The notes under the pieces: generated by a model | The model's input: the letters and a program-made list of their open reading frames with translations, nothing else | Databases searched by the model: none | Told to the model about the DNA's origin: nothing | Part shown: positions 769-64,000 of the stretch, piece after piece | How positions within the stretch are numbered: the first letter of the stretch is position 1 | How the letters are laid out: each line of letters starts with the position of its first letter | Origin: Clonostachys chloroleuca | Lineage: Eukaryota; Ascomycota; Sordariomycetes; Hypocreales; Bionectriaceae | Length of the DNA: 64,000 bases | Reading direction: 5' to 3' | NCBI GenBank assembly: GCA_037952775.1 | Contig: JBANAY010000004.1 | Span: forward strand, 9,114,001-9,178,000 | Program-made: the position numbers and the translations under genes

Positions 769-2250
769 ATGGCATCTACTAGCGACGAGAAGAGCGTCGT
801 AAGCCCTCAAGCACCCGACAAGGCTGACCAAACGCTCAACAGCAAGAAGACCCAGGCTGGTACTGGTACCGTTGATGTCGAGACTGGCCAGCTCCACGCT
901 CTCGAAAAAGAACCTCTTCCGCCATTCACCGAGTCAGATGACCCATTTGGCGGCGAAGGAGGCAACAACTACCGTACAATGGGGCGCTGGGACACCGTCT
1001 TTGCCCTTGTCACGAACCAGATGGGGCTGGGAATCCTTTCCTTGCCTGGCACACTGAAGATCCTGGGTCTCGTTCCTGGCCTCATTGCCATTTTTGCCAT
1101 CGGCTCTTTGACGTGGTATGCTGGTTATGTCCTGTACGAGTTCTACGCAAGATACCCCTTTGTCATCAACCTTGTAGAGATGGTCAAGGTCATTGGTGGG
1201 AAGAGATGGGAGGCAGTAGCCTTTTCCATGTTCATCTTCCAGCTTGTTCTCACTGGTGCTTCTACCGCAGTGACGCTCTCCATCGTCTTCAACTCTATCA
1301 GTGAGCATGCCATGTGCACAGTCGGCTTTATCGGTATCGCCTGCTTGGTCATCTTTATCTTCTGCATCCCGCGTACCATGAAGTTTGTCTCTCAAAGCGG
1401 TATCCCCTGCTTTCTTAGCATCACCGTCGGAGCCTTGGTGACCATGATCGGTCTTGGAGTTGGGCATCCTGCCAAGGCTCCTGCGGACTGGAAGCTGGGC
1501 TCCGGTCTTACTATTGCTGGGCACCCGTCTTTTCAACAGGGATTAACTGCTTGTATCCGCATCTTCTTTGCATTCGCAGGTAACTTTGCCTTTTGCTCCT
1601 ACATGGCAGAGATGAAGGACCCAGTCAGAGACTTTCCTTTTGCTCTCCGGGGGCTCTTCATCGCCTCCATGAGCGTGTACGCGGCATTCGCTGCGATCCT
1701 CTATGTATTGGCTGGAGAGTACACAACCTCGCCTGCTCTGGGTTCCGCGCCTCTCGTCTATGCAAAGGCGGCCTATGGAATTGTCATTCCCGCGGTGCTC
1801 ACCTCTGGGCTCTCCAACGGACACATTGCCATCAAGCTCGTCCATGTCCAGGTGATGCGTGCGATGAACCTCACCAAGGAGATCACTGCCAACACTTTTC
1901 GCTCGTGGGCCATCTGGATCGGGATTGGAATTGCCTTCTGGGTTATTTCCTTCATCATTTCCAACGCGATTCCCATCTTTGACTCGATCGTTTCCATTAG
2001 TTCATGCGCCACGTATAGTTGGACAACATGGGGGATCGCCGGGTTCCTGTGGCTGCACCTGAACAAGGGGTCGTGGTTCAGTACCTGGAAGAAGAGGGGT
2101 TTGTTTTGTCTCAATGTCTCGCTTATTGTTCTTTCGCTTTTCATGAACAGTGCAGGTCTGTGGGCATCGATTTCGGAACTTCTCGATGCCTTCAAGACGG
2201 GATCTGGTGTGAGAGGATGCTTTGACTGCGGTGATAACAGTTCCCTCTAG
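769..2250 (+). CDS. Amino-acid permease, AAAP family (Aa_trans)
   Basis: Predicted 493-residue polytopic membrane protein of the amino acid/auxin permease family, which imports neutral amino acids by proton symport at the plasma membrane or vacuole. The first 70 residues are polar; the membrane core opens with a GRWDTVFALVTNQMGLGILSLP segment-type pattern (residues about 74-95), the family's TM1 signature, and about ten further hydrophobic spans follow to the C-terminus. The end, CFDCGDNSSL, resembles the C-A-D-N-S tail of the second permease in this window (57232-58937). The gene is intronless. The ATG at 769 (CCAAAATGG context) is the first in-frame ATG; the frame is open a little further upstream but only from GTG. 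Substrate is not deducible. Confidence 0.9.
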   Translation: MASTSDEKSVVSPQAPDKADQTLNSKKTQAGTGTVDVETGQLHALEKEPLPPFTESDDPFGGEGGNNYRTMGRWDTVFALVTNQMGLGILSLPGTLKILGLVPGLIAIFAIGSLTWYAGYVLYEFYARYPFVINLVEMVKVIGGKRWEAVAFSMFIFQLVLTGASTAVTLSIVFNSISEHAMCTVGFIGIACLVIFIFCIPRTMKFVSQSGIPCFLSITVGALVTMIGLGVGHPAKAPADWKLGSGLTIAGHPSFQQGLTACIRIFFAFAGNFAFCSYMAEMKDPVRDFPFALRGLFIASMSVYAAFAAILYVLAGEYTTSPALGSAPLVYAKAAYGIVIPAVLTSGLSNGHIAIKLVHVQVMRAMNLTKEITANTFRSWAIWIGIGIAFWVISFIISNAIPIFDSIVSISSCATYSWTTWGIAGFLWLHLNKGSWFSTWKKRGLFCLNVSLIVLSLFMNSAGLWASISELLDAFKTGSGVRGCFDCGDNSSL

Positions 2251-14246: not shown

Positions 14247-15677
14247 TTATATTAAATGTTGGTTCCGTAGAAAAGGAGATCCTAATTTGACCAGCTCGCC
14301 CCAAGACAGTATCCCAAACGAATCCATTCCAGCCCAAAATGACTCCAGCGTCTGCCTTACATGTTCACCAAACTGCGGTGAAAACCCTGTGAATTTGGTA
14401 ACATCACGCAGCCACTTCTGCCTCTCGGTTCCCCTGAGCTCCAAGCAAGCAACCAACAAGGCGAGGTCAACACACCGCACGATGCTTCTCGTGGCCGCCA
14501 GTGTCGTCTCCAGCTGCGACAATATGCTCATAGAAAGCATCTGGGCCGGTCCGTCGTTCACGCCAAACGGGAAGCGAAGGCGGTGGGCGATCAATAGGAG
14601 CGCTTGTCGCATGACCTGAACCTGGCACAGCATGTGGGTAACCTCGACGGTGTCGAACCGCTCTGTAAAGTCTTCTGGGGGTTCAGGCTGCCACGCGCGC
14701 ACATATTCCTCGATAGCCTCGAGCTCAGTATATATATCAGTCGTATCTACAGGTCCTTTGGACAGCGCATGGCTCAACTTGCAAACATCGTAGAAGCACG
14801 GTATCACAGAGGCACACAAGCCAACGTGACGATCGACGTAGCTCTTTTCGGGCGCCCTGAAACGTAAAGTTGGCAGCCCGCAGCTGAAGAGGCAGCCTCG
14901 TACCTCCCACATGACCATGCAGCTCATAAATACCAAGGGCTCTGGCTCTTTCGGGTCGCTCGTGTTATAAATGGGCTTGATCAGGGCGAGCGTCCGGGAA
15001 CATATAGCTAGCACGTCGTTAACGCGTAATTTGACAGCAAAGGATGAGACTAATGCGCCGAGCATGAGGGCCTCCATCATCGTCTCCGGGCTCGTCGCTT
15101 CAAGAGTCATGAGGGTAGCGATCGCAGAAGAAGCATGCCGGTAGCACGCAGTCAGGCGACGGAAATTGCCGGAATCATCAACGTCCCCTGCCCAAGAGAT
15201 AGCACACGCCAGCAGCCCATCCAGAAGGGTGGACTTGGATAATAGGAGCTGTGGAATAACCTGCCGGCGCACCGGCTCTGTGAACTTGTCGCTGACTGAG
15301 AAGAGGTCGAGCATTTCGCTCTGGAAAAGGATCCTCTGCACAAGCTGCAAAATCTGTCGGTCCACGCTCGGTACGCTGTCGAACTCCTGGATGCATCTGG
15401 GAATGACTGTGCCTCTCCGGGTCTGGGCTTGGAGCCTCGCGCAGTGCAAGCGGTCTTGATGCGTTGGGAGGTCTCGAGATCGCCGGCTGCCCCATCCCTC
15501 ACCTCGTCTCCGCCCTGGTTTCCCCTTTGGCCTTGTTGATTCGCAAGGAAATTGTAGGCGGATACAGCGCTCGCACTCTGACTTGTCGTCGAGCCATTGA
15601 CACCTTGCCTTCACAGCGTGGCATCTATCGCAAGCCCTAGGTGGCCCTAACTCACCGTGAATAATAAAGGATGTCAT
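14247..15677 (-). CDS. Zn2Cys6 transcription factor 1
   Basis: Single-exon gene of about 476 residues. The binuclear zinc cluster lies near the N-terminus: ACDRCHAVKARC then eight residues, CERCIRLQFPC (spacing C-x2-C-x6-C-x8-C-x2-C-x6-C). It is followed by a basic linker (KGKPGRRRGE). The rest is helical, as in fungal regulators with a divergent middle-homology region; no other domain is identified. The ATG at 15677 gives a 15-residue leader before the first cysteine; the frame is open upstream but lacks an earlier ATG. It sits between the PRISE reductase and the amidase, transcribed in the same direction as the amidase, so it may regulate this cluster (inference). Confidence 0.88.
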   Translation of the reverse strand: MTSFIIHGELGPPRACDRCHAVKARCQWLDDKSECERCIRLQFPCESTRPKGKPGRRRGEGWGSRRSRDLPTHQDRLHCARLQAQTRRGTVIPRCIQEFDSVPSVDRQILQLVQRILFQSEMLDLFSVSDKFTEPVRRQVIPQLLLSKSTLLDGLLACAISWAGDVDDSGNFRRLTACYRHASSAIATLMTLEATSPETMMEALMLGALVSSFAVKLRVNDVLAICSRTLALIKPIYNTSDPKEPEPLVFMSCMVMWEVRGCLFSCGLPTLRFRAPEKSYVDRHVGLCASVIPCFYDVCKLSHALSKGPVDTTDIYTELEAIEEYVRAWQPEPPEDFTERFDTVEVTHMLCQVQVMRQALLLIAHRLRFPFGVNDGPAQMLSMSILSQLETTLAATRSIVRCVDLALLVACLELRGTERQKWLRDVTKFTGFSPQFGEHVRQTLESFWAGMDSFGILSWGELVKLGSPFLRNQHLI

Positions 15678-16490
15678 GGCGAAGACCAGACACCAGGGGG
15701 TGTCCAGTTGTGAAAGAGATGCCGATTGTCTCGGAATTCCGTTCAACTGGAAGCTCTGATGCGGAGCCGAAGTGAGATCGGGGGATAGTTATTCCGGACC
15801 GTCGTGCCCCACAAGCCCGAAACCATCGCCGGACTTTGTCCAAGGGAAATACTTGATCAACTATTGGGACGACATACCCATTTGGCAATACAAAATACCA
15901 CAATTTTGGAACTACCTCAACACTTACAACGCCAAGTTTCTCCCCTCTTTATTCAAACGGTTCATTAACAGGCAAGGCAGATTGCTGAGCGTATCTAAAG
16001 CTTAAGAGTATCCGTGCGCGAAGCTCGAACCCTTGCACAAAATTTGGTCTGGAAATAACTAACAGAACGTTCTTCTACAGGGCCGATTGACGCAGTTTCT
16101 CTACAATGGATTGTTGTTAGTATCCCACCTCTGGAATCCCCCAGCAACAGAAAACAAGGCGCCGCTTTTGCAAAACTAATGACACAATGCCCAGGTCCTT
16201 GAAAGTCCATGTCCGTTAAGAAGAGTTTCTACTCCCAATTCAACACCGAAATACATCTGGGCTGTCCTTTGTTGGTTCAATAACGACTGCTTTGCAAGTT
16301 TACCATTCTTAGGATCCCGCCCATCAGACTCGTCGCCCTGAGCCTTCACCTAACTCGAACTCGCCGATAAGTCCCCGTTCCTCGAGGCTCGAATACTCAA
16401 ACACAGGTCATCGTCGCCGTTCAAACGTTTTGAAACAGTACTCCGCGCCCAATACCCTCACTACCGAACCCCGCACCGTCGATCTTGGAT
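15678..16490. other. Intergenic between amidase 3' end and regulator 1; no gene seen
   Basis: This is the promoter and 5' leader of regulator 1 plus the 3' flank of the amidase. No supportable coding region was found. Confidence 0.4.
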
Positions 16491-18459
16491 CTAAGCAACG
16501 GATTGCTTGAAGCAGTCGTCAATGACCTCTGCTGCGGCCAAGCACTCTTCGTCTCGCATGCGGCTAGTAAACACCTGAATCGAGGAGGGCGCTCCTGCAA
16601 CGGCTTCGGGATTATCTGCCATATCAAAGTTAGATTTTGCTGGGATGGAGTCAACATATGCGTGTGCTTACATAGAGGTGCGCCCTGCCCTGGTTTGGCA
16701 ACAAATTCGACATCAATCTTGGAAGCTTTGCCAAAAGGGATGATACAAGCGGGATACTGTGTTATGTTAGATGTATCTATGAACAGCATGTGCTCGCCAA
16801 AACTTACATCTAGAAGATTCAAGAATGCAGAATAGGCCGGCCAGCCAAAATTGTCGTGCTCCACGGCTGTATGCTGAGCAGAAGGTGAGATCACTGCATC
16901 CAGATTGTGCTTCACCCACAGCTTGCGCCACGCTTCCGCAATCTCGGCGCGGATGTACTCCAACATGCCATACTTGTCGAGCCGATCCTTGCCGCTCAGG
17001 TCGGGCAAAAAGTCCCAGCCAATGTTACTGACTTTCTCACTAAAGTTGCTCAAGCACGTCACGGGTGGCTCACCGCTGGCTGCCAGAATGCTGCCTGCTG
17101 TTGTGTCCAAGGTGACGAGTTGTGTCATGATTTGGTTTGCTTCTCCAACGCGGCATTCCGATGCATCCAAGGTCACAATTTCGTGTCCTTGCGATTGGAG
17201 AGCCTTGACTGCCTTGTTGATCGTCTCTTCCACTGTAGGGTGGAGCGGGAAGAACGGATCAGCTGGGAGAAGACCCAAACGCAACTTGGGCTTTTTCGCG
17301 AGCGATCGCCACGGCGCGTCGATAACCGCCCCATCATAAAGGGCGGGTTTGGCGTCGATCATCGTTTTCATGAACAGTTTTAGAGAGTCGATGTCGTTTG
17401 CGAGCGGGCCAGCTGTCGGTTTAACCGGCCAAATTCCAGCGCTGGAAGGCATTATCTGCTTTCCGAAGGGAAGCCTGTCTGCCGTAGCCCTTAAGCCGTA
17501 CACCCCGCAGCACAGGGAGGGAATCCGTATAGAACCTAGACTTAGTGAGCCATCGAGGTTGGAGTATTTGGGGCTGATTTGATTTTTTACCAGCAAGATC
17601 AGTCCCAACTCCCAGAGGAGTTCCTCGGAATGCAACCAGAGCACCTTCGCCTCCGCTGGATCCGCCAGCCGTGAGCATCGTGTTCCATGGATTCAGCGTG
17701 CGACCAAAAACATTGTTGTCAGATTCAACGGCCTTGCAGTTCATTAATAATATGTCCAAAATGGGCTGAGAATGCAGGCGGCACGTACCAGTAGGATTTG
17801 AGCCACGTTGGTCTTTACGTAGAGGACGGCTCCCAGCTCGAAGAGAACTTCCACCATGGAAGAATTCTCTTGCGAGGTGCGGTTGAGAAACGAAACGGCG
17901 CCGATTGTCGCTTGGGTTCCCTCGACCTGGTAGGTGTCCTTGAGGCTGATGGGCAGGCCGTGCAGAGGCCCAAGAAGTTTGCCCTTGCTGCGCAAATCGT
18001 CCAAATACTGTGCCCTCTCCAACGCCTCCTTGAAAAATGTCTCCGTCAAACAGCCCACCTTCAAATTTGTTAGTGGTCAAGGCATCTATCAGGGAAAGGG
18101 GCACTGCGTGATGGTCGACTCACCAGCTGCTGAACAATGGCTGCGCGTTTCGAAAAAGCCAAAGTCACTTCACAAGAAGTGAACTTTCCAGAGGCAAGGC
18201 CCTCCAAAAGCTGCGAGGTGCTGAAAGATTCTGTAATTTCAATCTCTCTCTCCGTAAGGATACCGGAGCGGCGCGGAATGTCCAAATCGATCAGGTTAAC
18301 CTTGGTCTTGGGAAGGTCAGATTTTGCTGGGAGTGTTTCAAGAATTGACTGAGGAAGAATCCAATCTTTTGGAATGGCTTCTTGACACGCGGCACGCTTT
18401 TCAGCTGCTTTGGTCTGCCAGCTGTCGACTGTTGGCGAAGTTGGTGGTTGCGGAGCCAT
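16491..18459 (-). CDS. Amidase signature family enzyme (acetamidase-like), six exons
   Basis: Predicted exons (transcription order) 18459-18124, 18058-17789, 17732-17591, 17535-16808, 16756-16672 and 16615-16491; all phases agree and yield about 561 residues, the usual size for fungal acetamidase-like proteins. The Ser-Ser-Lys machinery is visible: lysine in HGLPISLKDTY, the cis-serine in GGSSGGEGALVA and the nucleophile serine in DLAGSIRIPS. The codon for the glycine before the nucleophile serine is split by intron 3. The enzyme hydrolyses a C-N amide bond, cytosolic by lack of a signal peptide. Introns are 51-65 bp. The start at 18459 (GGACCATGG) is the first ATG. Substrate unknown; the context suggests a metabolite-processing step or nitrogen scavenging. 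Confidence 0.92.
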
Positions 18460-24312: not shown

Positions 24313-25638
24313 ATGAATTCATCCCAGTCCATTGGAAGCAGTGATGCTTGGGTTCCACCCCCGGACTCCCGTGCTTATATCCTCACTCCTCTTTTATTTA
24401 CGGTGATGGCGATTTCCAGCATGCTTGTCCTTCTACGGTTGATAACGAGATTATTCTTGACCAAAGCCCTAGGAATCGATGACCTGCTATCATTTGCGTC
24501 ACTGGTAAGTTCTTCATCCAACAGTCTAGGTATCAAAGGGTGGCGACTTAGACCTACTCAGGCCATTATAGGGGCTTTGACGGCATTGGGAATCATAAGT
24601 AGGTGTTATTCATCGGTCATCCATCGCCTAGTCGGCTAACATGAAGTTAGGCGTTCAATATGGGGCAGGAACACATGTATACAAAGTCCCCCCGGTCAAA
24701 CTTCCATATTTTCTCAGCGTATGTCACCAAGTTTTGGAACATACATCTCATAAATCTGACGATCTTCCACAGCTAATAACCACGACTGAGCTACTCTTCA
24801 CTTTCTCGCTCTGCATGGTGCGATTCTCCAATCTTGCATTTATCTTTCGATTGAGCAGCGACAGTGGGTTTTTACCTATCCCAGTCGAATGTAACTCACT
24901 GACCTGATCTCGAGAATGGTTTGTCAGGGGCATCTATGCTGTTGGATTCCTGGTGTTTTCGACCACGCTAATTGCGGTTGCCTTTGTCCTGTCCAAGTGC
25001 AAAGACGTGAGGTGTGAAAGAAAGGCTGCCTTGTCATATCTTTCTGGGAACTTACTAACCGCTCTTATTCTGTATTCAATTAGAGATCTGTGGAATATCG
25101 GCAACCTAAACCGAGACTGTAAGGGCTTCAACGCAGAATTTCCGGTCATGACCTTCCACGCCGGGATGGGGATCTTTATTGACGCGAGCATCTTGGCGCT
25201 ACCCATCTGGGTCGTCTTCCGAAAGATGAAATTCTCACCCAAGATGGTTCGGGTTGTTCTCATTTTTTGCGTTGGCGCTGTTTCTATCATTGCAGGGGTT
25301 CTGAGACTCATCTACTCCCTCCTCGATTTCGACGCTGATATGTACGTTTGCACCCTTCAGCTCTCCAGCGACCTCAATATAGAAACTATAAGGTAGCCTG
25401 GTTGAGAAATTGAACGATAAAATGACTAAATACTAATCTCTGTTTGGTCTATTGTAGCACTTACAATATGGGTGTGATGGCACAATGGGGTGGTATTGAG
25501 GCGCACCTTGGGCTCTGGACAGCGTGCTTCCCTGCTCTACAGCCCCTTTTCCGACTAGCTGGCACAAAATTAGGGATTTCGGGGAGAAATAAAACCTCGA
25601 AGGGAACATACAAGAGCTATGAGAGCCATAACGCCTAA
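24313..25638 (+). CDS. Rhodopsin-like integral membrane protein (fungal rhodopsin domain family), seven exons
   Basis: Predicted exons 24313-24504, 24562-24598, 24651-24718, 24773-24863, 24915-25011, 25084-25341 and 25458-25638 sum to 924 nt (about 307 residues) with matching phases. The protein shows the family's multi-span pattern: a first span after a short extracellular N-terminus, LGIDDLL, ELLFTFSLCMVRFSNLAFIF, a KCKD...DLWN...C segment, FIDASILALPIWVVFRKM and a C-terminal YNMGVMAQWGGIEAHLGLW. It contains no retinal-binding lysine that I can assign; function in this family is unknown. The intron at 25012-25083 is in frame if retained, so two isoforms are possible. Its stop codon overlaps that of the convergent transporter gene. 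Confidence 0.78.
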
Positions 25639-27271
25639 GCCTGTTCCACCATGAGACTTTGTTCCTTACCGGTCCCAGTTGAAATTCCGCTGTCGCTTGG
25701 GACGGTAAGATTCATGTTCTTTGACATCTGCCGCGCGATAGAGACCGGATTTCCTCCTTGTGAAAAGACAAGGTCGATATCCTCCAATTTGAAGTTGCTC
25801 GTCTCCGGGTAGAAAAAGTAGAACGTCGGCACGAAAAGAAGGTTGGTGACCATGAAAATCAGATACGCCTTCCACTGCAAGCGGTTGATGATGACTGGTG
25901 TGATCATGACCACGGTGAAATTCCAGAGCCAATTGGAGCTGACACCAATAGCTGTTCCTCGAGTGCGGGCCTCAAGAGGAAGAATCTCCGGGACATAGAC
26001 CCAAGGAACACAGTTGACGCTCATTCCGAAGATCAACATGTACAGGAAGAAAAAGGCTACTGCGGCAGAGGCACAAGCATGGCCATTGGGGTGCCCGACT
26101 TGTGATAGGAGTGCCGCAACCATGAGCATACAAATACCCAGGCCCGTGCAACCCCACAGCATGGTCTTCCGACGGCCCATTCGATCGAGAGCGAACGAAG
26201 GCAAGATGGAACCAAACATGAACATCATGTTGATACAGCCGCCGAGAATCTGGGCTGTTCGCTTGTCCATTCCAACATTCTGCACTAGGACAGAAGGAAT
26301 GTAATAGACGACGAGGTTGATGCCGCCCGCCTGGTTCATGAACTGGACACCCCAGGCAAGCAGTATACGATACCTGGTACCAATGCTGTCCTTCTTGAAG
26401 ATGCTGAAGAAGGAGTCACCCTTATTGGATGAAAGTTCGAGTTCGATGGCCTTTTGAATAGAAGAGGTTTCCGCGATGATGGAAGGGTCTGAGGGGTCCT
26501 TGTCGTGGAACTGACATAAGACATTGATAGCATCTTCGTCGCGACCCTTCATCAACAACCAGCGGGGGGACTCTGGGAGTGCGAAGACCAGGATAACAAC
26601 GCCAATGGCGAAAACCAGTTGAAAAGCAATCGGGAACCGCCAGGCTACCTCACCACCGACAAAGGACATGCCAAAATCAAACCAATAAGCAATTGTGATA
26701 CCGACTCCGACGAAAAGGACCTCGGTTGAAACCAGGCGACCACGGGCTCCAGGGCTGCAAAGCTCGGATTGATACCTTTATGCGAATCAGCCATTGCTAT
26801 CTGGTAGAGTTGAAAAGTTGCGGGAACTCACATAGGAACCGTTGAAGTCTTTATTCCTGTACCGAAACCAGTGATGACGCGTCCAATGACTAGATGAGCG
26901 ACCGAATACGCGCTGGCCTGGAGGGTCGCACCAACCAGAACAAAGCCCATGGCGAGCCAGATGGTTCTACGACGACCCAGCTTGTCTCCAAGGAAGAAGT
27001 TGACTAGCGAAAATTGTCAGCACGTGTGAGAAAGCTCTAAAACAAATGTGCACTCACTGACACAACCTGTAAGACAACCCAGATTGTAGCAAGATACTAT
27101 GATCCCAGTCTCTGTGTCATTCGGGTAGCCAAACTGACGTTGCCAGTCTTCGTTCTCCAGAATGCCGCCCAAGACCCCCTGGTCATAGCCAAAGAGCACG
27201 AATGCGACGAGACAACAGATCGTGACACCGACCTGGACGCTCTTGCCCCGTCCGAGAGAGAATAAAGCCAT
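25635..27271 (-). CDS. MFS sugar-type transporter (sugar porter family), three exons
   Basis: Exons 27271-27058, 27003-26832 and 26775-25635 (introns 54 and 55 bp) encode about 508 residues with twelve predicted spans. Sugar-porter signatures are visible: FGYDQGVLGG in TM1, GDKLGRRR in the first cytoplasmic loop, GRVITGFGTGIKTSTVPMYQ after TM4, PESPRWLL before the central loop, DRMGRRKTM in the second half and PETSNFKLEDID after TM12. It probably moves a hexose, polyol or related small molecule by proton symport at the plasma membrane; in cluster context it could also carry a pathway substrate (inference). Its stop (25635-25637) shares bases with the stop of the rhodopsin-like gene. Start ATG at 27271 gives the usual short N-terminus. 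Confidence 0.92.
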
Positions 27272-37909: not shown

Positions 37910-38652
37910 CTACTTCTGGTTTCCAATGTGCTGAGTGAAGGTGCTTCCTTTGGCAGCCATGACACCCACATTTCCGCCATACACAGTGTTGTCAATGCTT
38001 TCTTTCTATAGACTCGTCAGATCCAGTCATCACATGAGGAATACTTGAAGCAGGATATGACGTCTTTAAGAATTCGAAGACTCTCACTAAGCTCAAGAGC
38101 CTCCTTGTCAATAGTCGTCTTCTCCTGCGTTCGGGCGGCAGGGAACAGATCCTCAAGCTCCCTTGTTTTCTCGGCGATGCTATCGATCATCACTTTGAAG
38201 CGCTCCCGGTCCCGCAACACCCATGTAACCTTCTTGACCACAGACAGGTTGTTCTGCCTTTTGCGGATTATCCGCTGGTGTACTTCGTGAAGCGACAAAC
38301 CCGTGTAGCTTAGCGCTTCCTCGGCCTTGAGAATACTTGGATCATCTGCGTTATATTTTTGATCTATATCCTTGGCGGTTTCCAACGCTACCAGTATCGC
38401 GCCCAGCAGGTTGCTTGCTTTGGGTATATGCTCTGGGACTACTCTTGTGCCCCGGAGATTTCTGGTATTCTGGCTCACATTGCTAAGGCCAACGGCCTCG
38501 CCCCAGCGCGACAGGCGGAGGTTCACATTGTCGAGCTTGAGTATGGAGTCCTCATAGTCTCCACCAAAGGTTTCTGCAAAGTGGATGTACTCAAAGATCT
38601 TGATGACAGAGTCAAATGTGGATGCAAGATTGACGAGGCTTGTCCCTGCCAT
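37910..38652 (-). CDS. HeLo-domain protein (HET-S family) with a probable spliced amyloid-motif tail
   Basis: The first exon (38652 to about 38062-38045) encodes a HeLo domain of about 200 residues: MAGTSLVNLASTFDS, FEYIHFAETFGGDYE and LRLSRWGEAVGL match the HET-S pattern, and LEDLFPAARTQE and SESLRILKD its end. Unspliced, the frame stops at 38017. A minus-strand open stretch at about 37997-37912 in another frame codes NTVYGGNVGVMAAKGS and STFTQHIGNQK then stop; it is Gly/Asn/Gln-rich like HET-s-type amyloid motifs. Splicing can join the two in frame, for example intron 38044-37998 (GTATTC..AAAG, 47 nt, branch CTGAC; 231 residues) or 38061-38006 (GTCATA..TAG, 56 nt). Neither donor is strong, so the junction is unproven. 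HeLo proteins are pore-forming cell-death effectors. Confidence 0.8.
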
Positions 38653-39843
38653 AGTGCTGCTACAAGATGAATCAGAGTGCTTGATTGACTCTCAGCGGAA
38701 ACAGTTTATTTACCAGTGGAAACCAACCAGCTATTGATCAACGCATGTGAAGAAAGCGGGGGTTGTCCGCCTCACTTTCTGCCTTGCAGTGGTGCGAATA
38801 GGTGGCGGGACTGCATTGGCGTGGCTGTGGCTGTGGTTGTAAGCATCTCTAAGGCTCGGTGAGATCAGACCTACACAATTCAACCCGATAACTATGCCTT
38901 ATGTTTGAGGTCAGTTACCAAATCATAGCGAACGTGATCTCTCCATAGTCGCATCTACTAGCGAAAACCGAGAGCAGGCAAACAACGAACGCAACCAAGG
39001 CATATTTAGATGGGAGCTTACTAGCCACAGGCGGCTAGCTGCAGGGTAAGGAGAATTAAAGGTTATCGCGGACACAACCAGAGCGAATCCCTTGTCGCAG
39101 GTTTCGATCTTACCTACATCAGCGCCTAAACATCATACCTAGGTACCTCTCTAAAACTATGGAAGCTCCCTGTGAGGGCACACATAGCAACACTCGGGGG
39201 GGCTACACTTGTCCATTCTGTGACGTTCACAAACGATTCTGAAACAACTGTATGAGCTTCCCACGATGGGGTTGTAAAATAGTTTGTGTTCGCAAACGTG
39301 CCACTATGGTTGGAGATCAAGGCGTTAGGACTGCCGCTGCTTTTGACTCTTGGTTCACTAGTCTGTCTCATTCAACAGGACAGCAGGGAACCACGGCGTA
39401 ATGCCTTTCCACTGAATTCGGAGTTGCCTGCCACTCGGCTTGCCGATGGCAGAAAAGTTTGGAGTAGCTCCAGGGTAATTGTTGACCTCGCTGCACGGGT
39501 GGAAGTGATCTCCTTTTCCCTACCGCCTTAGAGAACATCTCGATCAAGATTCGAGATCCCTAATCCTATTACTTAATTAGATTTCAGTGCATACTTATTG
39601 TAAGTTCATCGATTATTTGTCAGGCGACCTGAGCTTTTCGAGTTCTTGTAGGTGCAGAAGGCGCAAGCCACACTCTAGACGGACAGTGGCTGGGGCTCCT
39701 GGTCAGCCACAGCAAGGCAACTGCAAGGCATTTGCGTGGCCCGCTCTTCTCCCCTGCCAGGCTCCTCTTTTCACCACCTTTATTGATCAAGCGATGACAC
39801 GGCACGGCCTGGAGGAGTTTTGTCGTTCTGTCATGTGCCCAAA
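38653..39843. other. Divergent region between HeLo and HET genes; no gene seen
   Basis: 1.2 kb with no supportable coding region; 5' regions of both death-island genes. Confidence 0.4.
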
Positions 39844-42570
39844 ATGGAGCAAATAATACACACATGGGAGGCACCTGCAACTGCTTATTTATTTTCGCCC
39901 ATTTTCTGCATAGATCTCACGATACGCAGAACAAAATACGCACGGCATTCAGAGAAACCAACCACCGATCCTATGACTTGGCACGGGGACTGCAGGAAGG
40001 CTGACATTACTGTCATTGACCTGGGACTTGGTGGACTAATACCGTGCTGCAACAGCTGTGGAGAAGTGTGCCCTTCGAACGACAACGATGCCACCAATGC
40101 CACCGATGCCGAGCGATCAGCCACCCATTCGACACTTGCGTTTGAGCCTCCATCACGTCATGAGAACCTCCACTGGCCCTCGTCTGTTCCATACTTTGAT
40201 GACAATGACTTTCTAATCAGTCGCGGAACAGATGCATCGCCCGACAGCCTCCCCCAGGAACGGAATGCCGGCACAGGAGCATCATCCCTCGTTCGCTCTA
40301 AGCCCTTTCCACGGATATCACGCTTCCAAGAATTAGGCGAAAGACAAATTCGCCTATTGCATCTGTCCAACGGAAATTTCAACGATCTAATCCACATTAA
40401 TCTCACAGTTGAGGACTTCGCATTCGGGGTGCAATATGAGGCACTTTCATACACCTGGGCCAACGATGCAGGCGATTCCCGAAAATCATACTCCGTTTAT
40501 TACGGCGAAGGTTGGGAGGTGATTAGGGTCACAGAAAATTGCGCCAACGCCCTCCGAAGGCTTCGCTACCGAAACAAGACAAGGACACTTTGGGTTGATG
40601 CCATCTGCATCAATCAAGAGGATGTCGACGAAAGAAGTCATCAAGTAGAAATGATGGCGGATATTTTCGCATGCGCAGAAAGGGTCATTGTCTACCTGGG
40701 CGAGAATGAACCTGGATCTTTTCATGATGAACCGCTCTACCGTTCGCGTCTCCGTCAGCAGGTCGAGGAACTCTGCGGCAGACCATACTTCTCCCGAATC
40801 TGGGTAGTGCAGGAATTGGTTTTTGCCGCGGACAAGACAGTCATATGTGGTTCTACAACGTGGGATTGGGATATGTTTGATACTATGGCGCGCAGCCTCT
40901 CAGACGCCACCCGGATATCCTGGATCGATTATTGCAACGATCGCAAGTACCGCGAGGGTCTAGATCTGTTTCAGTTAATTTGCAGCACCCTAAACTGCAA
41001 ATCCTCTGATCCACGAGATCGAGTGTTTGCTCTTCTCGGCCTAGTTGTTGGATCAAGAGCTATGGGTCTCACGCCAGACTATTCTTTACAACTTGCAGAT
41101 CTCATGATTGGAGTAACGGGCCACTTTCTCATTCATTGTTCCGCTCAGGATTGCAGGACAATTTTTTGCTTAGCCCGCACGAATGGTGTTTCAGCTTGGG
41201 CATCGTGGGTCCCGAACTGGGCGGATATTGGACAGCGGCAATGGTTTGAGGCTGCTTCTATCAGGGAGAGACAGGAATACGTGGGCACCGAGGAAAAGGG
41301 CTGGAGCCCACATCTACTTTTGAGGTGTGTCGAAACTGAACGGCCAGCCCTTGGGAAGGCAACTGGCTGCCTTAAACTGAAAGGATTCTTGGTCGCTTCT
41401 GGTCCCAACATGAACCAAATCACATTTTGCGGCGCCTCACCTTTTTGGGAAGCAAGTGCCGTGTATACATGTACATGGGATCAGCTTAAGGGAGTTGACA
41501 TCGTGGTTGTCTATATTCCCTGCTATGGTTCATATTTCCTTCTTCGCTCTGCAACCACTTCCACAGACCATGTGGCAGCGAAGTCGAGTGAAATTTGCGC
41601 CCTGGGCCCTAGTAGGCCAGACTTTGACGACATTACCTTTACAATAAATCCTTCTCATTTAGTCCATGACCACAACGTTTCAATTTTAGCCAACATCAAC
41701 TCATGGGTTAAAGCTCTTTTTCGATCAGGCATGTATACGGGTGCCGATCTAAGCGGCCTTGTGGAGCCTTGGACACAGCTCTTGGAAAACAAAGTTGACT
41801 ATCCGAAGGAAACATGGAAACGGAACAGACTCTGGGTGCGAATGCTGTTACGGAAGGCAGTGATTTACCAACAAACTTTATCCCTACTTCTGAAGAGGAG
41901 TAAAAACACAGGAGAGGGGCAGATCCTTCCGAGAACGCTTTCTTTGATTCGAAACATTAGCCTCTTCGCCCAAGACTTGACGCTGTTTGTGCGTACAGGT
42001 GCACTTCTTGATTCCGCTCTTACACTCGGCATCTTTTTATGGAAGATTGCTCCGATCCGTAAATCTTCGAAAGGTCCCATCCTGCAGTACGAGTCTCCAG
42101 TATCTTACCATACCGAAAACCAAATATTGTCTAATTCTTTCATCCATTTTCTAACGAATCATCTGATTGAAGATGACCCAGATGATGATTGGGGCTTCAC
42201 AAGACAAAACAAAACATTGGTGAAGCATTTCATTGAATTTCTCTCGGCCTATATCTCCCTGCCGCAAAACGCAAGTCTTTGCCCATTGAATCACGACAGC
42301 GAACATTGGAATTTCCTCTCAGAAATTTCGACGTCTGGAATGCCCATCAACAATGGCGAGTTAAGCCTCCTCCCCAGGCACACAATTTGGTGTCTGACGG
42401 GTCGACACTCGATCACATCCGCATATCGCACACAGAACAAGCGGTGGCTAAGTTGGAGGGACTATCCCGACCCTGGTGTCATACAATGTATGTGGGTGAT
42501 TGATGAAGCTCTTTGCACAAAAGGTTGGCATGTCTTTGTGCCGGACTTGATTGACGTGTATATCGCGTGA
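39844..42570 (+). CDS. HET-domain protein (heterokaryon incompatibility)
   Basis: Intronless gene of about 908 residues. The HET domain (PF06985 type) occupies roughly residues 168-350, with its hallmark strings YEALSYTWAN, TENCANALRRLR, LWVDAICINQED, RVIVYLGEN and YFSRIWVVQELVFA, then DPRDRVFALLGLV shortly after. The last 500 residues are unassigned and contain no transmembrane span or repeat that I can see. HET domains act in allorecognition and regulated cell death and resemble TIR domains in fold. The ATG at 39844 (CCAAAATGGAG) is the first in frame; a second Met at 39973 is possible. The stop is only 170 bases before the first NLR ATG, on the same strand, and the HeLo gene is divergent upstream. 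Confidence 0.9.
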   Translation: MEQIIHTWEAPATAYLFSPIFCIDLTIRRTKYARHSEKPTTDPMTWHGDCRKADITVIDLGLGGLIPCCNSCGEVCPSNDNDATNATDAERSATHSTLAFEPPSRHENLHWPSSVPYFDDNDFLISRGTDASPDSLPQERNAGTGASSLVRSKPFPRISRFQELGERQIRLLHLSNGNFNDLIHINLTVEDFAFGVQYEALSYTWANDAGDSRKSYSVYYGEGWEVIRVTENCANALRRLRYRNKTRTLWVDAICINQEDVDERSHQVEMMADIFACAERVIVYLGENEPGSFHDEPLYRSRLRQQVEELCGRPYFSRIWVVQELVFAADKTVICGSTTWDWDMFDTMARSLSDATRISWIDYCNDRKYREGLDLFQLICSTLNCKSSDPRDRVFALLGLVVGSRAMGLTPDYSLQLADLMIGVTGHFLIHCSAQDCRTIFCLARTNGVSAWASWVPNWADIGQRQWFEAASIRERQEYVGTEEKGWSPHLLLRCVETERPALGKATGCLKLKGFLVASGPNMNQITFCGASPFWEASAVYTCTWDQLKGVDIVVVYIPCYGSYFLLRSATTSTDHVAAKSSEICALGPSRPDFDDITFTINPSHLVHDHNVSILANINSWVKALFRSGMYTGADLSGLVEPWTQLLENKVDYPKETWKRNRLWVRMLLRKAVIYQQTLSLLLKRSKNTGEGQILPRTLSLIRNISLFAQDLTLFVRTGALLDSALTLGIFLWKIAPIRKSSKGPILQYESPVSYHTENQILSNSFIHFLTNHLIEDDPDDDWGFTRQNKTLVKHFIEFLSAYISLPQNASLCPLNHDSEHWNFLSEISTSGMPINNGELSLLPRHTIWCLTGRHSITSAYRTQNKRWLSWRDYPDPGVIQCMWVIDEALCTKGWHVFVPDLIDVYIA

Positions 42571-42740
42571 GAGGGGGAATATTGCCAGGCGGTGAGAGAC
42601 GTTCGAATATTCATTGTTGTTAGCGAAATATATCCCATTTTCCTCTTTCACATCCCCCTGCGCCTATCCCGGATGGCAGTTCGCAGTAGTCGTGATAGGT
42701 CAGCTCAACCGATCTAAAAAGGAAGCCATAGAGACCTGCG

Positions 42741-44453
42741 ATGATATACTGGGATAGAATATACTTGGTACGCGTCACACTCCAGGAAATATCAACCCAA
42801 GGCGCAGTGTTTGCCGGTGTGAGAAATGTAAGATCACATATAGTTAGTGCGCCCCCACTTAGCTTTGTCGATCAGTTGCCACGGGACTCAGCAACTGAAA
42901 CATTGGATTTTATTCAGCTCTGGTTGGCTGGAGGCGAGAAGAATTGGTAAGCATGGGAAGGACATGCATTTCCAGGCTCTGGCTAACGTATGGAAAATAT
43001 CCCAGCAATGTTACTCAGCACATTGGTCAGGGTATGTGTAGGAAAACAGCCTCGCCTTGGCTGACCTCTTGCAAACTGGAGCAAGTGGAGATGTTCGTCC
43101 GAAAGCTAATGCTATCAAATAGGTACACCACGAGAGAGTGACGAGGCAGAATTCATGAGATGCCTTTATACATCGCCATACCAGGATCGCAAAGACAGAA
43201 ATCCGAACAGAGTCCCCGGCACATGTGGCTGGTTTGTATCTCACCCTCTTTTTCAGGATTGGGAATCTGGAAAATCATCGCCAGTGCTTTTCTTGTCGGC
43301 TGATCCCGGCTGCGGAAAATCAGTGCTGGCCAAACACCTGGTTGAAGATGTGCTTCCGACGACGAATGCGAGAGTTGTCTGCTACTTCTTCTTCAAGGAT
43401 GACTTTGAGGACCAGCAGAACATTCTCAGCGCACTTTTTTGCATGCTGCATCAGCTCTTCAAGAAGAATCGGGTGCTCTTTACCGATGCCGTTCGTGACC
43501 AGTGGTTAACGGATGGGGAGATGCTTACAAAATCATTCAAAGGGCTTTGGAAAATTCTCACTGAGGTCGCTCAGCATGACGAAGCCGGGGAGACTGTGTG
43601 TCTACTCGATGCCATCGATGAATGCCAACAACCGGGACGGTCTATATTTATCAAAGAGTTATGCCGGCTAAACAGCACTGCAGGAGGCTCTAGGCTGAGA
43701 TTTATCATCACTGGTCGGCCCACAGATGAAATTAAGCTTGCTTTTCATCCATCGAATTACCACTCCGTGCCGGTTATTAATGTGTGTGGGGAAGATGCGG
43801 TGGAAGTCGACAAGATATCCATGGAGATCGAAATGTTTATCAGAGCTAGAGTCACCGAAATAGCAGAGAGGCGGATGCTGACGGATGAAGAGAGGGACAT
43901 CCTTCTCAAACAAGTTATGCGTGTTGATAACAGGACTTATTTATGGGTTCACCTGACACTGGAGTTGGTTGAGAGGGACATAAGGGTCAACAAACGTCAA
44001 ATAATTCAAACAACGTCCAACCTTCCCGATACGGTAGACAAGGCATACGACGCGATCCTTAACACCAGCGGCCAAATTGAGGAGGGAGAGAAAATACTGA
44101 ACATCATCGTTGCAGCTGCACGGCCCTTAAGTCTGGACGAGCTTCAAGTAGCTTTCGGTGCCGGAGACCAAGAATCACACTCTGACTTGGTCGTTGATCC
44201 TCGGGACCGTTTCAGAAACTATATCAGAAAAATCAGCGGCCTGATTTTGACGATTTCTGATGATTCGAATGTTTACCTGCTTCACCAAACAGTCAAAGAA
44301 TTCTTGGTCAGTAGAGGAGAAGGCAAGATGGAGGTCAACGAACGGAACGGTTTGGTCTGGAAACAGCGCCTACACTCGCACCAGTCACACTTCATCCTCG
44401 CCAAGGCGTGCATGAAATATCTTCTTTCCCCGGAAACTCAAAGCTTACTATAA
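42741..44453 (+). CDS. NLR-type protein, N-terminal and NACHT part (three exons), ending at an in-frame stop
   Basis: Predicted exons 42741-42946, 43006-43031 and 43123-44453; introns of 59 and 91 bp have GTAAGC/GTATGT donors, CTAAC and CTAAT branch points and CAG/TAG acceptors, with matching phases. Exon 2 (26 nt) codes the core of CNVTQHIGQG. The NACHT ATPase has Walker A SADPGCGKSVLA, Walker B CLLDAIDEC and a sensor-like FIITGRP; a winged-helix-like part ends with LLHQTVKEFLVSRG. The frame then meets TAA at 44451-44453 and, in the same frame, continues DNYISHPIYAYVFFDYSAKNW into the ankyrin part, so this is one gene broken by a nonsense codon. The family senses non-self and triggers cell death. 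The first ATG (42741) is a best guess. Confidence 0.82.
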
Positions 44454-45590
44454 GATAATTACATATCCCATCCCATTTACGCATATGTCTTCTTCGACTA
44501 CTCCGCAAAGAACTGGGCAGCTCATCTGCGCCAATCTCAAATCGAATCACAGCAGGCAATGGCAGAGTCGGTTGAAAATTTATGCCACCCCAAACTTAGC
44601 CAATATTGGTTCAAGAAATATTGGGACAGTACGAACGGTAAGGTCCCAGAAGAACTTACGCCACTGATGATTGGGTCGTACTTTGGCCTAACATCAACAG
44701 TAAGGGACTGTATCAATAAAGATCCTGACTCTCTGAACTGCGGCGATTCTATATATCAACGGACAGCGCTCTGTTGGGCTGCTAAAAATGGGTTTGCTGA
44801 CGTCGTCAGACTCTTGATCAAAGGAACAAAAATAAAGTTCGCCCTTCTCACATTTACGAGGCAAAAAGCTTCATTAAACTCAGTTGACAGGTTTGGTCGA
44901 ACAGCCTTGTTTTATGCTGTCATGGGCGGTCATATCGACATGGCCAAGGTTCTACTTGATGCTGGGGCATATGTGAACAATAAGGACAAAATGGGGGGGA
45001 CAGCATTCTCTTATGCTGTTTGTATCGGCGATGATCGATTGATCGACTTACTTCTCCGCATGTCTGCGAGAGCTATAGCGTCTAATTTGGGGGATCTCCT
45101 CATCTCAGCGGTAGATCACAAAGATGAAGAGACGGTAGCGCTTCTTCTTAACAATGGAGATGTCCAAGCCCAAGTCAATAAGATAAGTGCCTCGCGCATG
45201 ACATCCCTATCTTTGGCTGCCCGTTTGGGCTATGGACAGATAGTTGGGATGCTTCTTGGTAAAGGCCAAGCTGACCCCGATGCGAAGAATGGATTTGGGC
45301 ACACAGCTTTAATGATTGCTACCGAGTCTAGTCATCAACGGATTGTTGAGATTCTTCTTGATGAAGGCAAAGCTGACCCAGAGGCGAAGGAAAATGATGG
45401 ACAAACAGCGTTGATACGTGCTGCTCGATGGGGATGGATAGATGCTGTTGAGATTCTTCTTGATAAAGGCAAAGCCAATACACAGTCGAATGATAACGAT
45501 GGAAAGCCAGCTTTGATGTGGGCTACTGAGAACGGGCATGAGGGCGTTGCTTCCATACTTAGGAGTAGATTGTGGATATCCTTATCGTGA
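44454..45590 (+). pseudogene. Ankyrin-repeat C-terminal part of the same NLR, separated by one stop codon
   Basis: This stretch continues the NACHT frame exactly (44559 is in phase with 43155). DYSAKNWAAHLRQSQIESQQ is the conserved linker that follows NACHT in fungal NLRs; the first internal ATG (44559) begins MAESVENLCHP. It then encodes about eight ankyrin-type repeats (TALCWAAKNGFADVVRLLI, TALFYAVMGGHIDMAKVLL, TALMIATESSHQRIVEILL, TALIRAARWGWIDAVEILL and others). Without its own promoter this part is probably not translated unless the stop is read through or internal initiation occurs. Other strains may have an intact gene. The DNA of the last repeats is very similar from unit to unit. Confidence 0.8.
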
Positions 45591-60342: not shown

Positions 60343-62512
60343 ATATTACTCTACCCATTTCGTACCGCCGCCAAGTCTCGCTTCGAACCAGTATGCCAAA
60401 TTTCCAGTCTAAAATGGACTGCCATATGCAAGAAAGCTTAGCTTTGACAAGATACTCGGAATTTGCGATTCCTTCGTCATCCGGGATCCAAATGGGTTCC
60501 ATGAGATTCTCATCACCAAGCTCGTGTTCCCCTTCTCTCTGTTCTGCCATCTCCAAAAATCGTCACCCAGACGTGCGGTTCACAAGCTGTTGACAGGTTT
60601 TGCATTTCTCCACAAAGAGCTTTGGAATAGATCCGCATAAGGGCGACTTTAGTATCGCAGTTCTGCAGCCTTGATCAGGTAGAGATCTCAGCCTTTTGAG
60701 AAACTCGCCTGTTATACCTGCTGTCTCATGAAACCATTTTATCGTAAGGAAAAAAAATGAAGATATACCTTACCGAAGCCGTGGATCTTAAATCATTTCT
60801 TTCTGGGAAGCAAGAGCGTTCTCCTTTGATCACCGCCATCACCAAAGTTGTTAAAACCACCGCTGAGTCACTAAGGAGTACCGGTATTCACTAGGCACAA
60901 AGCCCCAGATTCATTCGTCTGCTGCAAGATGTTATTGAAAGGACTGGCCAGGCCTCACACGGCAGGCCGCCTCAACCTCGAGCCATTCGCCAACGCGCTG
61001 AGAAGCTGCCTCGCTCTCCTCGACCTCATGTGTTCACGACATGCCCCTACCACCCACACCCAGCTAGCTTTCGAACACCTGCTGATAAGACCGCCGTTTC
61101 TGAGCGAGACGCATCTTGCAGTCGCTTTGGTGGGTGGCGTGGTTGAGGAATCCGTATGAGACCGCGTCAGTCAACGATGGCTCAAAGAAAGCATTGGGTT
61201 TCGCATTACTGCTCAAATCGAGCCGGGGACGCCGTGGAGAACGCTGTCACCGCCATCGCTACCGTTATTACCTGCCCTCCTCCTCTTGTTGGTTGACGTC
61301 CCTCTCATCAGCACTTGTTGTTCAAGCTGGGTAAATAGCGCTAGCAGCGGCACCAAACAGCTGGACTAACAGATCTGTTTAAAGAACACAAGTTCGTCAT
61401 GATCATTTGGTAGAGCCTACCTGGAAAATGACTTCTTCTAAGAGTTACCGGCTGTGCCTCTCTGTGACGACACGGGCATCCGAAGTCTCCATCTAATTCA
61501 TGTCTAATGGAATGGTGGGTTCTCTCTGAAGCAAAAGGCCGACATCTGGATGTTGAGGTGCAAGGTGAGCTTCCCCGCATGGATAACCCATCTTTCAACT
61601 CGTACTAATCAAACTGCAGCCTAAAGACCGCCCAAATCGTGAAAGTGAATCTCTTTCTACGACGACCGCACTCGATATATCAGACCCTACCTCCCCCGGA
61701 CAACTGGCTCGATCTTTTCTAACTTCAACGTGCCTTCGCGTATGTTGAACACAAGCCTGACTCTGGGAGCCTGCCCACCTCATTGAAGGGAATGTCCAGC
61801 AGCACCTGGACATCTGCATTTTCTTCCTGCAACATGTGGAAATTATTACATCGAACACGCATGACTGATAGCTGTCCTTTGAATTAACCACTCATAGTTT
61901 GCCATCTGTACAACTGGGATGCAGCTATAAATGGGGCGCGCGGTGAAGGTTGCACAAAGTGCAGAAACCGTTGGGTCTGACGATTCTGGGCTAAAAGAGT
62001 CTTACGAAAGGATTACATCCAGCCTCTCGAGGAAGTGATTACTGCATGAAAGTAACCCCGCTCTACTCCCACACGAGCGTTCATTATACGTCATCTCACG
62101 CGAGCTAAGGATCAGTGACCTCACGTTCCGCTCGCTTCTGATAGCTGTGGTGCACGAGTACGAGGGCGTCTATTGCACATTCCCTGGGCCCGTGTGACTT
62201 GGTGAGCTGACTTTGCCCATCGCATTCGATTAATTCTCTTCGTAGCTTTCGGGTGCTGACTTCACATGCTTGGTTTGTTATGATTTGACCTGGTTACTTG
62301 ATAATGCAACTCTGACCTCTACTCATTAGCCTCCATTTTTACTGCACGTTCTTTTTTGCATATTCTCCTACCGTTGCTAGGCTGTACGGGAATCAGTATA
62401 AGAAGAACGGATTTCCAAAAGATTGCGTGGCAGAAAATCTACAGCATTGCCCTTCATTGCAAACAAAACAGCACCAAACCAACCACTCACCTCTTCTACC
62501 TCATCCGTCAAG

Positions 62513-64000
62513 ATGGAGGTCGAAGATAAATATGCGGATTTTGACTTTGATAAATATGTGGCAGAAAGTCTTCAGGACGGATCTGCGGAGTCTATTGTGT
62601 ACACAGCGAACGTTTACGCCGTGTTAGATGAGAAATCTCGGATGGAAGGCAACGGCGGATGGGGATTCAGAGACGGCCTTTTAGAGTATGCTATACACCA
62701 CAATTTTGCCTTTGCCGAGTCCGAAGAAAAGATGAATCTCCTTCAACAGCTCGCTGTAATTCTCGTCGATGAATGCGACGATGAGACGGACGAGCTTTTA
62801 TGCCTTTCTCGCAGAACTAAACTCTCGACCATTTTGGGACATCAATACACGCAAAGTGGTGAACGCGAGCACCTCATCAACGCTCTCAGTGAGATTGATA
62901 GAGCAGTGTCGTTATCCCCTCAAGCCCAGAGAACTCTGAACACCCCGGCGGGAGGCGTGATGGTGGTGCACCGTCCCGCCTCGGTGCTGCATGCGTTGAA
63001 TACATTGGCTACCAGGCTTGATGAATATTTTCAAATTACCGGGGCCTTGAACGCCCTCGACCGTTGCATCAGTATCAGAGAGGCCTTGGCTGGCCTTGTG
63101 CTTGAACCAGTCGAAGAATGCTTGGAGGCTCAAATTGAACTCCTTATCAATGCCGCTGACAGTCTACACCGACGGTACGAGCAAAGTGAGGAGGCGAGTG
63201 ACTATCTGGATCGGGCTTACGCTTATGCCCAATCAGCTGTTCTCCTATCAGGAAACGAGCAACATGAACTGTCTGGGGCTTTAGCTCAGTCGTCTCTAGC
63301 GGATGTGCTTGGTCGACGAGCGCTTGACACCAACAGCATGGGTGACCTAGAGGAGGCTATCCGATTATCTCGAAGCGTACGGCCCTTGTTTTCGCACGAT
63401 CCCAGTCGCTTGATGGAAAACGGTGTGAACCTTACATTGCGTATCCTTCAGAGACATGACATGATACGAAAAGGCCAAGGGGATATCGATGAGCAATTAT
63501 TGCTCAGAGAGATTGATGAAGCTATCACAATTGCGGACTCGACTCTTCGCAGCATGCCTGATGATCACCCAATTCGCCCCCACCTCAACAACCTCCTCGG
63601 ACACTGTCATTATGCCCGATACCTAGGAACAAGAGTTGAGGAGCGTGATCCCACGGTTGCGCTGGGTCATCTCTGGACAGCGCTCAACAGTAATAGATAT
63701 ACCTCTCTGTTTCGCCGCATACAAGCCGGCCGACAGATTGTTCGTATCTGTTGTGACGCATCCCTGTGGTCAGCGGCTTACGAAGCAGCGATCGCTACCG
63801 TCGCTCTGATACCTAAACTCTCACCCCGCGCGATCCAGATTTCTGACAAGCAGCGCATCCTGAGCGCCGATGATATCGTGGGGTTCGGTGCCGAGGCTGT
63901 TGCTCTTGCTATCGAGGCGGGAAAGGGTGGATATGCAGCGCTCTCTCTCGTTGAGAGTGCTCGAGGCTCGCTTGCTGCGTCTATATCTAATCTGCGAGTG
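62513..64000 (+). CDS. TPR/CHAT-type protein, 5' part (runs off the window)
   Basis: The frame is open for 496 codons from the ATG at 62513 (TCAAGATGG) to the last base, with no stop. The translation is helical and repetitive, with TPR-like segments (LLEYAIHHNFAFAESEEKMN, HLINALSEIDRAVSLSP, GALNALDRCISIREAL, YLDRAYAYAQSAVLLSG, DLEEAIRLSRSV). The last part, GFGAEAVALAIEAGKGGYAA then LSLVESARGSLAASISNLR, matches the linker that in fungal proteins leads into a CHAT (caspase-like HetF-associated TPR) domain, so a CHAT protease domain is expected just beyond the window. Such proteins are candidate effectors of regulated proteolysis or cell death; substrate unknown. No intron is needed in the visible part. 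Confidence 0.82.
   Translation, partial: MEVEDKYADFDFDKYVAESLQDGSAESIVYTANVYAVLDEKSRMEGNGGWGFRDGLLEYAIHHNFAFAESEEKMNLLQQLAVILVDECDDETDELLCLSRRTKLSTILGHQYTQSGEREHLINALSEIDRAVSLSPQAQRTLNTPAGGVMVVHRPASVLHALNTLATRLDEYFQITGALNALDRCISIREALAGLVLEPVEECLEAQIELLINAADSLHRRYEQSEEASDYLDRAYAYAQSAVLLSGNEQHELSGALAQSSLADVLGRRALDTNSMGDLEEAIRLSRSVRPLFSHDPSRLMENGVNLTLRILQRHDMIRKGQGDIDEQLLLREIDEAITIADSTLRSMPDDHPIRPHLNNLLGHCHYARYLGTRVEERDPTVALGHLWTALNSNRYTSLFRRIQAGRQIVRICCDASLWSAAYEAAIATVALIPKLSPRAIQISDKQRILSADDIVGFGAEAVALAIEAGKGGYAALSLVESARGSLAASISNLRV

Follow-up and report, generated by a model that had tools for sequence, protein, structure and literature searches.

Does a HeLo-domain gene of Clonostachys chloroleuca form an amyloid-coupled signalling pair with a NOD-like receptor (NLR) gene nearby, and of which kind is the motif involved? 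The question is raised by a stretch of 64,000 nucleotides from contig JBANAY010000004.1 (here called the window; positions count from its first letter). A minus-strand HeLo gene is followed by a short open stretch coding a tail with the pentapeptide TQHIG, and the same pentapeptide is coded by a putative micro-exon directly before the NACHT domain of a plus-strand NLR gene 5 kb away. A preliminary description of the sequence had regarded the two genes as a signalling pair. The reading favoured here, with moderate confidence, is that the window holds a decayed copy of a probable new amyloid-type motif of Clonostachys HeLo proteins, for which the NLR is an unproven partner.

Conserved tail motif of Clonostachys HeLo proteins

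The relevant features of the minus strand are the following.

38017..38652, minus strand: HeLo-domain gene as it stands, 211 amino acids, ending in ...ISCFKYSSCDDWI, stop codon at 38017-38019 (Pfam HeLo PF14479, E 3.4e-35)
38006..38061, minus strand: disrupted junction, last HeLo helix unrecognisable and frame lost (alignment of eight relatives, frameshift-tolerant alignment, splice enumeration)
37910..38005, minus strand: detached tail KESIDNTVYGGNVGVMAAKGSTFTQHIGNQK and stop codon, candidate amyloid-type motif (tail of C. solani P0002, repeats of P0003-P0005)

The HeLo frame scores 122.2 bits against PF14479 (cut-off 23.2) and is identical to protein P0001 (211 amino acids) listed for this genome in the protein collection, which ends at DDWI without a tail. 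The tail is coded by the open stretch 37913-38005, closed by a stop at 37910-37912. It lies where the preliminary description had located it, and the micro-exon peptide at 43006-43031 on the plus strand was confirmed as well. A search of 5.8 billion proteins gave 490 candidates, nine of them at E 0.001, the window's own protein included. The ortholog P0002 from C. solani (80% identical) is unbroken from the HeLo domain through EQDQALASALDAILKPLKE into TVDNTVYGGNVGVMAAKGSTFTQHIGDQK. Its tail segment, contiguous with the HeLo domain, reads NTVYGGNVGVMAAKGSTFTQHIGDQK. A sequence match links P0002 to the HeLo domain of HET small-s (structure 2wvn, E 3.1e-21).

Three other Clonostachys proteins carry the motif in repeats. 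Units of the form [TN]xT[QR]H number four in P0003 (C. rhizophaga), two in P0004 (C. byssicola) and two in P0005 (C. chloroleuca), the second unit of P0005 being GGNITQHFG. The internal-repeat scores of P0003, P0004 and P0005 were reached by 0, 1 and 0 of 1000 shuffles, respectively. Proteins from Ilyonectria (P0006) and Fusarium (P0007) keep the half-motif TVHGG[NI]VGVMSA but end in SDI[QR]QSF. An alignment of seven hand-picked units from six proteins, which leaves out irregular units of P0003, P0004 and P0005, shows no variation at the T, V and G of TVxG. The TVxG half is kept across genera and the TQH half within Clonostachys. Clonostachys HeLo proteins genuinely share the tail as a conserved motif at the C-terminus, and three of them have it in repeats.

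The genome analysed comprises 59.4 Mb in four contigs, all of which were searched. Three different queries recovered from it only the tail itself, with few first-look candidates, so that weak copies may be missed. The HeLo domain was matched 15 times. A search for the motif pair in related genomes had been proposed as a check. In protein searches, the tail proved conserved in Clonostachys HeLo proteins, but no NLR-size protein with the motif was found among 472 candidates of 422-1342 amino acids at E 10.

Disruption between HeLo domain and tail

The helix EQDxALASALDAILKP or a close variant is kept in eight of eight aligned relatives, before the tail where a tail exists. In its first part, the last HeLo helix can still be aligned with the structure of the HET small-s HeLo domain. 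At the position of the helix, about 50 bases of the window match it in no frame, as judged by frameshift-tolerant alignment to three relatives. The HeLo frame is closed by the stop at 38017; another frame codes the tail. No second copy or source of the disrupted stretch near 38006-38061 was found in the genome.

The preliminary description had called the tail reachable by splicing. An enumeration of splice joins, GC donors included, yielded 26 in which the tail is retained whole or in part, but all are weak and the last conserved HeLo helix remains lost in each. In none of the 26 does a GTRNG donor occur together with a YAG acceptor. Four joins (38087-38002, 38081-38002, 38061-38006 and 38044-37998) have a GT donor as well as a branch-like site. 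Three of these have an AAAG acceptor; the join 38061-38006 has a TATAG acceptor but the donor GTCATA. A better-looking join, 38087-38006, departs from the tail frame. The effector found in this window is therefore not an intact one with the motif: frame and helix are lost before the tail, and the joining splices are weak. Since helix and frame are lost, translation most likely ends at DDWI and leaves the HeLo product without the tail switch, judging from the gene as it stands.

Comparison with described amyloid motifs

To our knowledge, the amyloid signalling motifs described so far from fungi are few.

The patterns of the HRAM, PP, PUASM and GDQN classes were taken from three papers (PMC4518210, PMC9815663, PMC12261475). 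HRAM is given there as a motif of 21 residues with G19 and hydrophobic residues at positions 5, 8, 10, 16 and 18 (PMC4518210). With G19 in place, the tails of the window and of C. solani occupy two of the five hydrophobic positions. This test is blunt, as four of five are reached in one register of P0003 and two to three of five in the PP control tails. The HET-s Pfam model gave no match at E 10 on the window tail, P0002, P0003 and P0005, in a search run without an HRAM positive control. The sigma model PF17106 gave none at E 10 on the same four and the NLR N-terminus, likewise without a positive control. The PP core NxGxQxGxN is absent from the tail, and PF17046 matched neither the window tail nor P0002, P0003 and P0005, while it matched all three genes of a PP control. 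The PUASM (FxGxGxQxxGxGxF) and GDQN (NxxxGxQYxxxGxGDQN) patterns are absent from seven HeLo tails and from the NLR N-terminus. The tail fits none of the described fungal classes tested. The profile search that had been suggested with HET-s, sigma and PP models gave no match, with a control for PP only; the earlier remark that the motif could not be placed in a described class is supported for the classes tested, as none of the tested Pfam models or patterns matched.

Precomputed Pfam lists of the nine proteins name HeLo only. An NCBIfam scan of four relatives returned only low-scoring matches far under the family cut-offs, and the tail profile found one match among solved structures, which at E 3.7 is meaningless. 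A relation of the tail to the HRAM-like N-termini of NLR relatives was considered and rejected (hhalign probability 0.5 on a scale of 0-100, 7 columns).

The likeness to HET-S and HRAM systems consists of a HeLo executor with a short, repeatable C-terminal motif, the match of the P0002 HeLo domain to HET small-s, and an NLR nearby. The differences are the two of five HRAM positions in the window tail, the missing HET-s Pfam match and the lack of an NLR-size protein with the full motif in the search. The preliminary description had likened a spacing of 17 residues between two Asn to the HET-s repeats. The window shows this spacing, but C. solani has Asp in place of the second Asn. Sigma (PF17106), PUASM and the provisional GDQN are likewise short motifs common to fungal effectors and NLRs, according to PMC9815663 and PMC12261475; the window tail, however, lacks both a PF17106 match and the PUASM and GDQN patterns.

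The PP control is a cluster of the same genome (G000:C4:8855035-8861824). Its HeLo-type protein, second gene and NACHT NLR all pass the PF17046 (Ses_B) cut-off, with the motifs NSGFQIGNNSG, NSGLQLGQNVG and NHGLQIGNNSG. In the piece scanned around it (L109, G000:C4:8852500-8862400, outside the window), the second gene has no other recognised domain. As in the window, a HeLo-type protein and an NLR are close and divergent; in the cluster the motif stands at the effector C-terminus and the NLR N-terminus. Unlike the window tail, all three genes pass PF17046 and show NxGxQxGxN. Effector and NLR of this cluster share seven residues in a row, with three of the seven codons differing at the third base.

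The NLR gene and its TQHIG

The plus strand between the HeLo gene and the end of the NLR is organized as follows.

39976..42567, plus strand: HET-domain gene between HeLo gene and NLR, uninterrupted frame of 864 amino acids (Pfam HET PF06985, E 2.1e-27)
42744..42946, plus strand: possible upstream NLR exon, uncertain, no domain (open frame, canonical donor at 42947)
43006..43031, plus strand: putative 26-nucleotide NLR micro-exon, (C)NVTQHIGQ(G) (splice signals, in frame with NACHT, 14-nucleotide identity to the tail DNA)
43123..44450, plus strand: NLR NACHT exon of the NPHP3_N type (PF24883, E 2.6e-35; best relatives 56-57% identical)
44451..44453, plus strand: in-frame TAA between the NACHT/winged-helix part and the DYSAKNWA/ankyrin part (same frame on both sides)
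44454..45587, plus strand: NLR ankyrin-repeat part (Ank_2 PF12796, E 6.8e-47)

The micro-exon is flanked by an upstream intron at 42947-43005 (donor GTAAGC, branch CTAAC, acceptor CAG at 43005) and a downstream intron at 43032-43122 (donor GTATGT, acceptor TAG at 43122). Spliced, it codes CNVTQHIGQG and continues in frame into the NACHT exon. The possible upstream exon has no Pfam match and a codon score of 0.01, where 36 open intergenic windows score as high as 0.09; the codon-usage test is uninformative for it, as known exons score low too.

Tail and micro-exon have 14 identical bases in common (37923-37936 on the minus strand, 43013-43026 on the plus strand). The alignment of the two peptides had been described as five identities and four conservative pairs. 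TQHIG is indeed identical. The other four pairs are not conservative by BLOSUM62, in which S/C scores -1, T/N 0, F/V -1 and N/Q 0. What an amyloid pair would have in common, the same motif at the effector C-terminus and at the N-terminus of a neighbouring NLR, is reduced here to TQHIG: the window NLR lacks the TVxGGxVGV half, and no homologous pair was found in the protein searches.

The whole genome gave 150 scored NACHT (NPHP3_N) matches from 205 first-look candidates, some of them pieces of one gene and several with internal stops. The control set consisted of 100 of the 150, the first 100 by score with a match that begins no later than profile position 19. The NLR 5' region was defined as the 600 nucleotides before NACHT plus 60 nucleotides into it. 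By ungapped BLOSUM62 score against the tail, the window NLR ranks fourth of the 100 (31, behind 33, 33 and 32), and 10 of 300 shuffled tails equal its score. With seven motif variants it ranks 17th. The pattern TQH[IMV]G occurs genome-wide at chance frequency, with 41 sites against 36 for the reversed pattern. Taking this frequency as typical, an exact pentamer of the 31-residue tail is expected by chance at about 0.2 within 5 kb on either strand and at about 0.006 in 660 nucleotides.

Relatives of the NLR suggest another origin of the pentapeptide. The best 120 of 3239 matches were compared, with candidates limited to about 495-1573 amino acids and many of them nameless. TQH[IV]G occurs in none of these 120. 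No named protein among them is from Clonostachys, although a differently annotated ortholog could escape. Within the genome, the best paralog shows 39% identity over its full match. The 15 relatives inspected, of the 120 compared, cross the TAA at 44451-44453 with gaps of at most 5 residues. Among 117 relatives whose NACHT start is clear, 10 have linkers of the form [NS]V[TI]N[NSH]Y[GD], e.g. NVTNNYG, NVTNSYG and NVTNHYG, 41-46 residues before GTCxWF. The window has NVTQHIG 40 residues before GTCGWF. The linker NVTNHYG matches it as well as the tail does (five of seven residues), and its distance from NACHT is almost the same. Neither an origin related to the tail nor one from the linker is proven. 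It is more likely that the TQHIG of the NLR is a coincidence or the pre-NACHT linker of its own family than the matching half of a switch.

The sequence preceding the window NLR showed no HRAM-like motif (rank 30 of 100). Elsewhere in the genome, an HRAM-like NITQSTFGDSATI and a VTNHIG stretch precede another NACHT, after a stop-rich and AT-rich stretch (L098, G000:C4:14671727-14672777, minus strand).

Weighing of the explanations

The decayed copy is favoured by the conserved motif in relatives, the loss of helix and frame in the window and the limited match to the NLR. Several results weigh against it. A weak possible intron at 38061-38006 (branch CTGAC, acceptor TATAG) would keep the tail. 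The window tail is identical to the C. solani tail in 27 of 30 residues, as if constrained until recently. A tail of this kind was not seen in Penicillium P0008 or in the fragment P0009. Counting all units within Clonostachys, TQH-type cores (10, the window included) outnumber TVxG (8), so the essential part could be the TQH half by itself. The AlphaFold model of P0003, built on 8 sequences, is not usable (mean predicted local distance difference test score 36.6). By longest exact run, the window NLR ranks first of the 100 NLR 5' regions, with 5 amino acids against 4 and 14 nucleotides against 10; as evidence for a partner this rank is suggestive, the measure having been chosen after the fact. 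Only one of the 41 TQH[IMV]G sites, that of the window, lies at most 5 kb upstream of any of the 150 NACHT matches on the same strand, at a distance of 205 bases. The linker resemblance of the NLR ranks fourth of 100, no stronger than the resemblance to the tail.

A wider proposal would define TVxGGxVGVMAAxGGTFTQHxG, in one to four copies, as a new amyloid motif class distinct from HRAM, PP, sigma, PUASM and GDQN, and the window as a recently decayed pair whose NLR micro-exon keeps the TQHIG half. Taken together, these claims appear rather unlikely.

The HeLo gene may still make its tail by unusual splicing, with another gene as NLR partner or with none in the genome. Splice options exist for such a product, the near-identity of the tail to that of C. 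solani is in keeping with it, and PMC9815663 voices the suspicion that genes which are not adjacent can also be coupled by amyloid signalling. Every product of this kind, however, would be without the last HeLo helix, and this explanation is considered unlikely.

A working pair with a new motif, in which the HeLo protein is spliced to the tail and an activated NLR templates it through TQHIG, is quite improbable. The canonical micro-exon with TQHIG in frame directly before NACHT argues for it, as do the 14-nucleotide identity, the first rank by exact run, the single nearby site, the conservation of the tail in relatives and the divergent HeLo/NLR order, minus and plus strand, known from the PP cluster. 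Against these stand the absence from the NLR of the TVxGG.VGV half that is kept across genera, the lower ranks by BLOSUM62 score and with seven variants, and the HET gene in between. The searches also returned no NLR-size protein with the motif and no named Clonostachys protein among the best 120 of 3239 NLR matches, and the PP control effector and NLR have more in common, namely a run of seven identical residues and one Pfam motif. The claim that the two genes form a working signalling pair is not supported, given the lost HeLo frame and helix, the NLR stop at 44451, TQHIG as the only common element and the missing TVxGG half. Errors of assembly or base calling, which could make intact genes look broken and would suit damage in both genes within 6.5 kb, are very improbable, as the HeLo damage covers about 50 bases without recognisable similarity rather than a single slip and the NLR is interrupted by a stop in a frame that otherwise aligns.

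The preferred explanation is still the decayed copy of a Clonostachys HeLo motif. From the state of both frames we infer that the HeLo gene and the NLR are probably non-functional here.

Neighbouring genes

Other genes recognised in the window are the following.

706-2247, plus strand: amino-acid transporter gene
14250-15788, minus strand: Zn2Cys6 transcription factor gene
16424-18119, minus strand: amidase in two overlapping frames, probably an intron
25638-26777, minus strand: sugar transporter gene
about 36 kb, plus strand: flavin monooxygenase gene
about 46-47 kb, minus strand: zinc carboxypeptidase gene
62402-64000, plus strand: open frame of 533 amino acids running off the end of the window, no Pfam match at E 0.001

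Proposed function and significance

The minus-strand gene is a putative HeLo cell-death executor. By analogy with HET-S, the Gly/Thr/Gln/His-rich C-terminal motif of its relatives, TVxGGxVGVMAAxGGTFTQHxG, single or repeated, may act as an amyloid switch that templates its own folding. In species whose gene is intact, the folded tail would force the HeLo domain into a pore-forming state, as in the HET-S/NWD2 model. The HET-S mode of action is taken from the literature on fungal amyloid signalling (PMC9815663, PMC4518210, PMC5485727, PMC12261475). In this genome such a switch would be disconnected, and the HeLo domain without its last helix is most likely inert. Searches of the open literature, with subscription papers and supplementary files outside their reach, listed nothing recognisable on this motif or on Clonostachys HeLo proteins. 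If the reading is true, a further HeLo motif with one to four copies across related species would provide a natural series in which repeat number can be compared with the sensitivity of the switch, and the copy in the window would illustrate the loss of such a switch.

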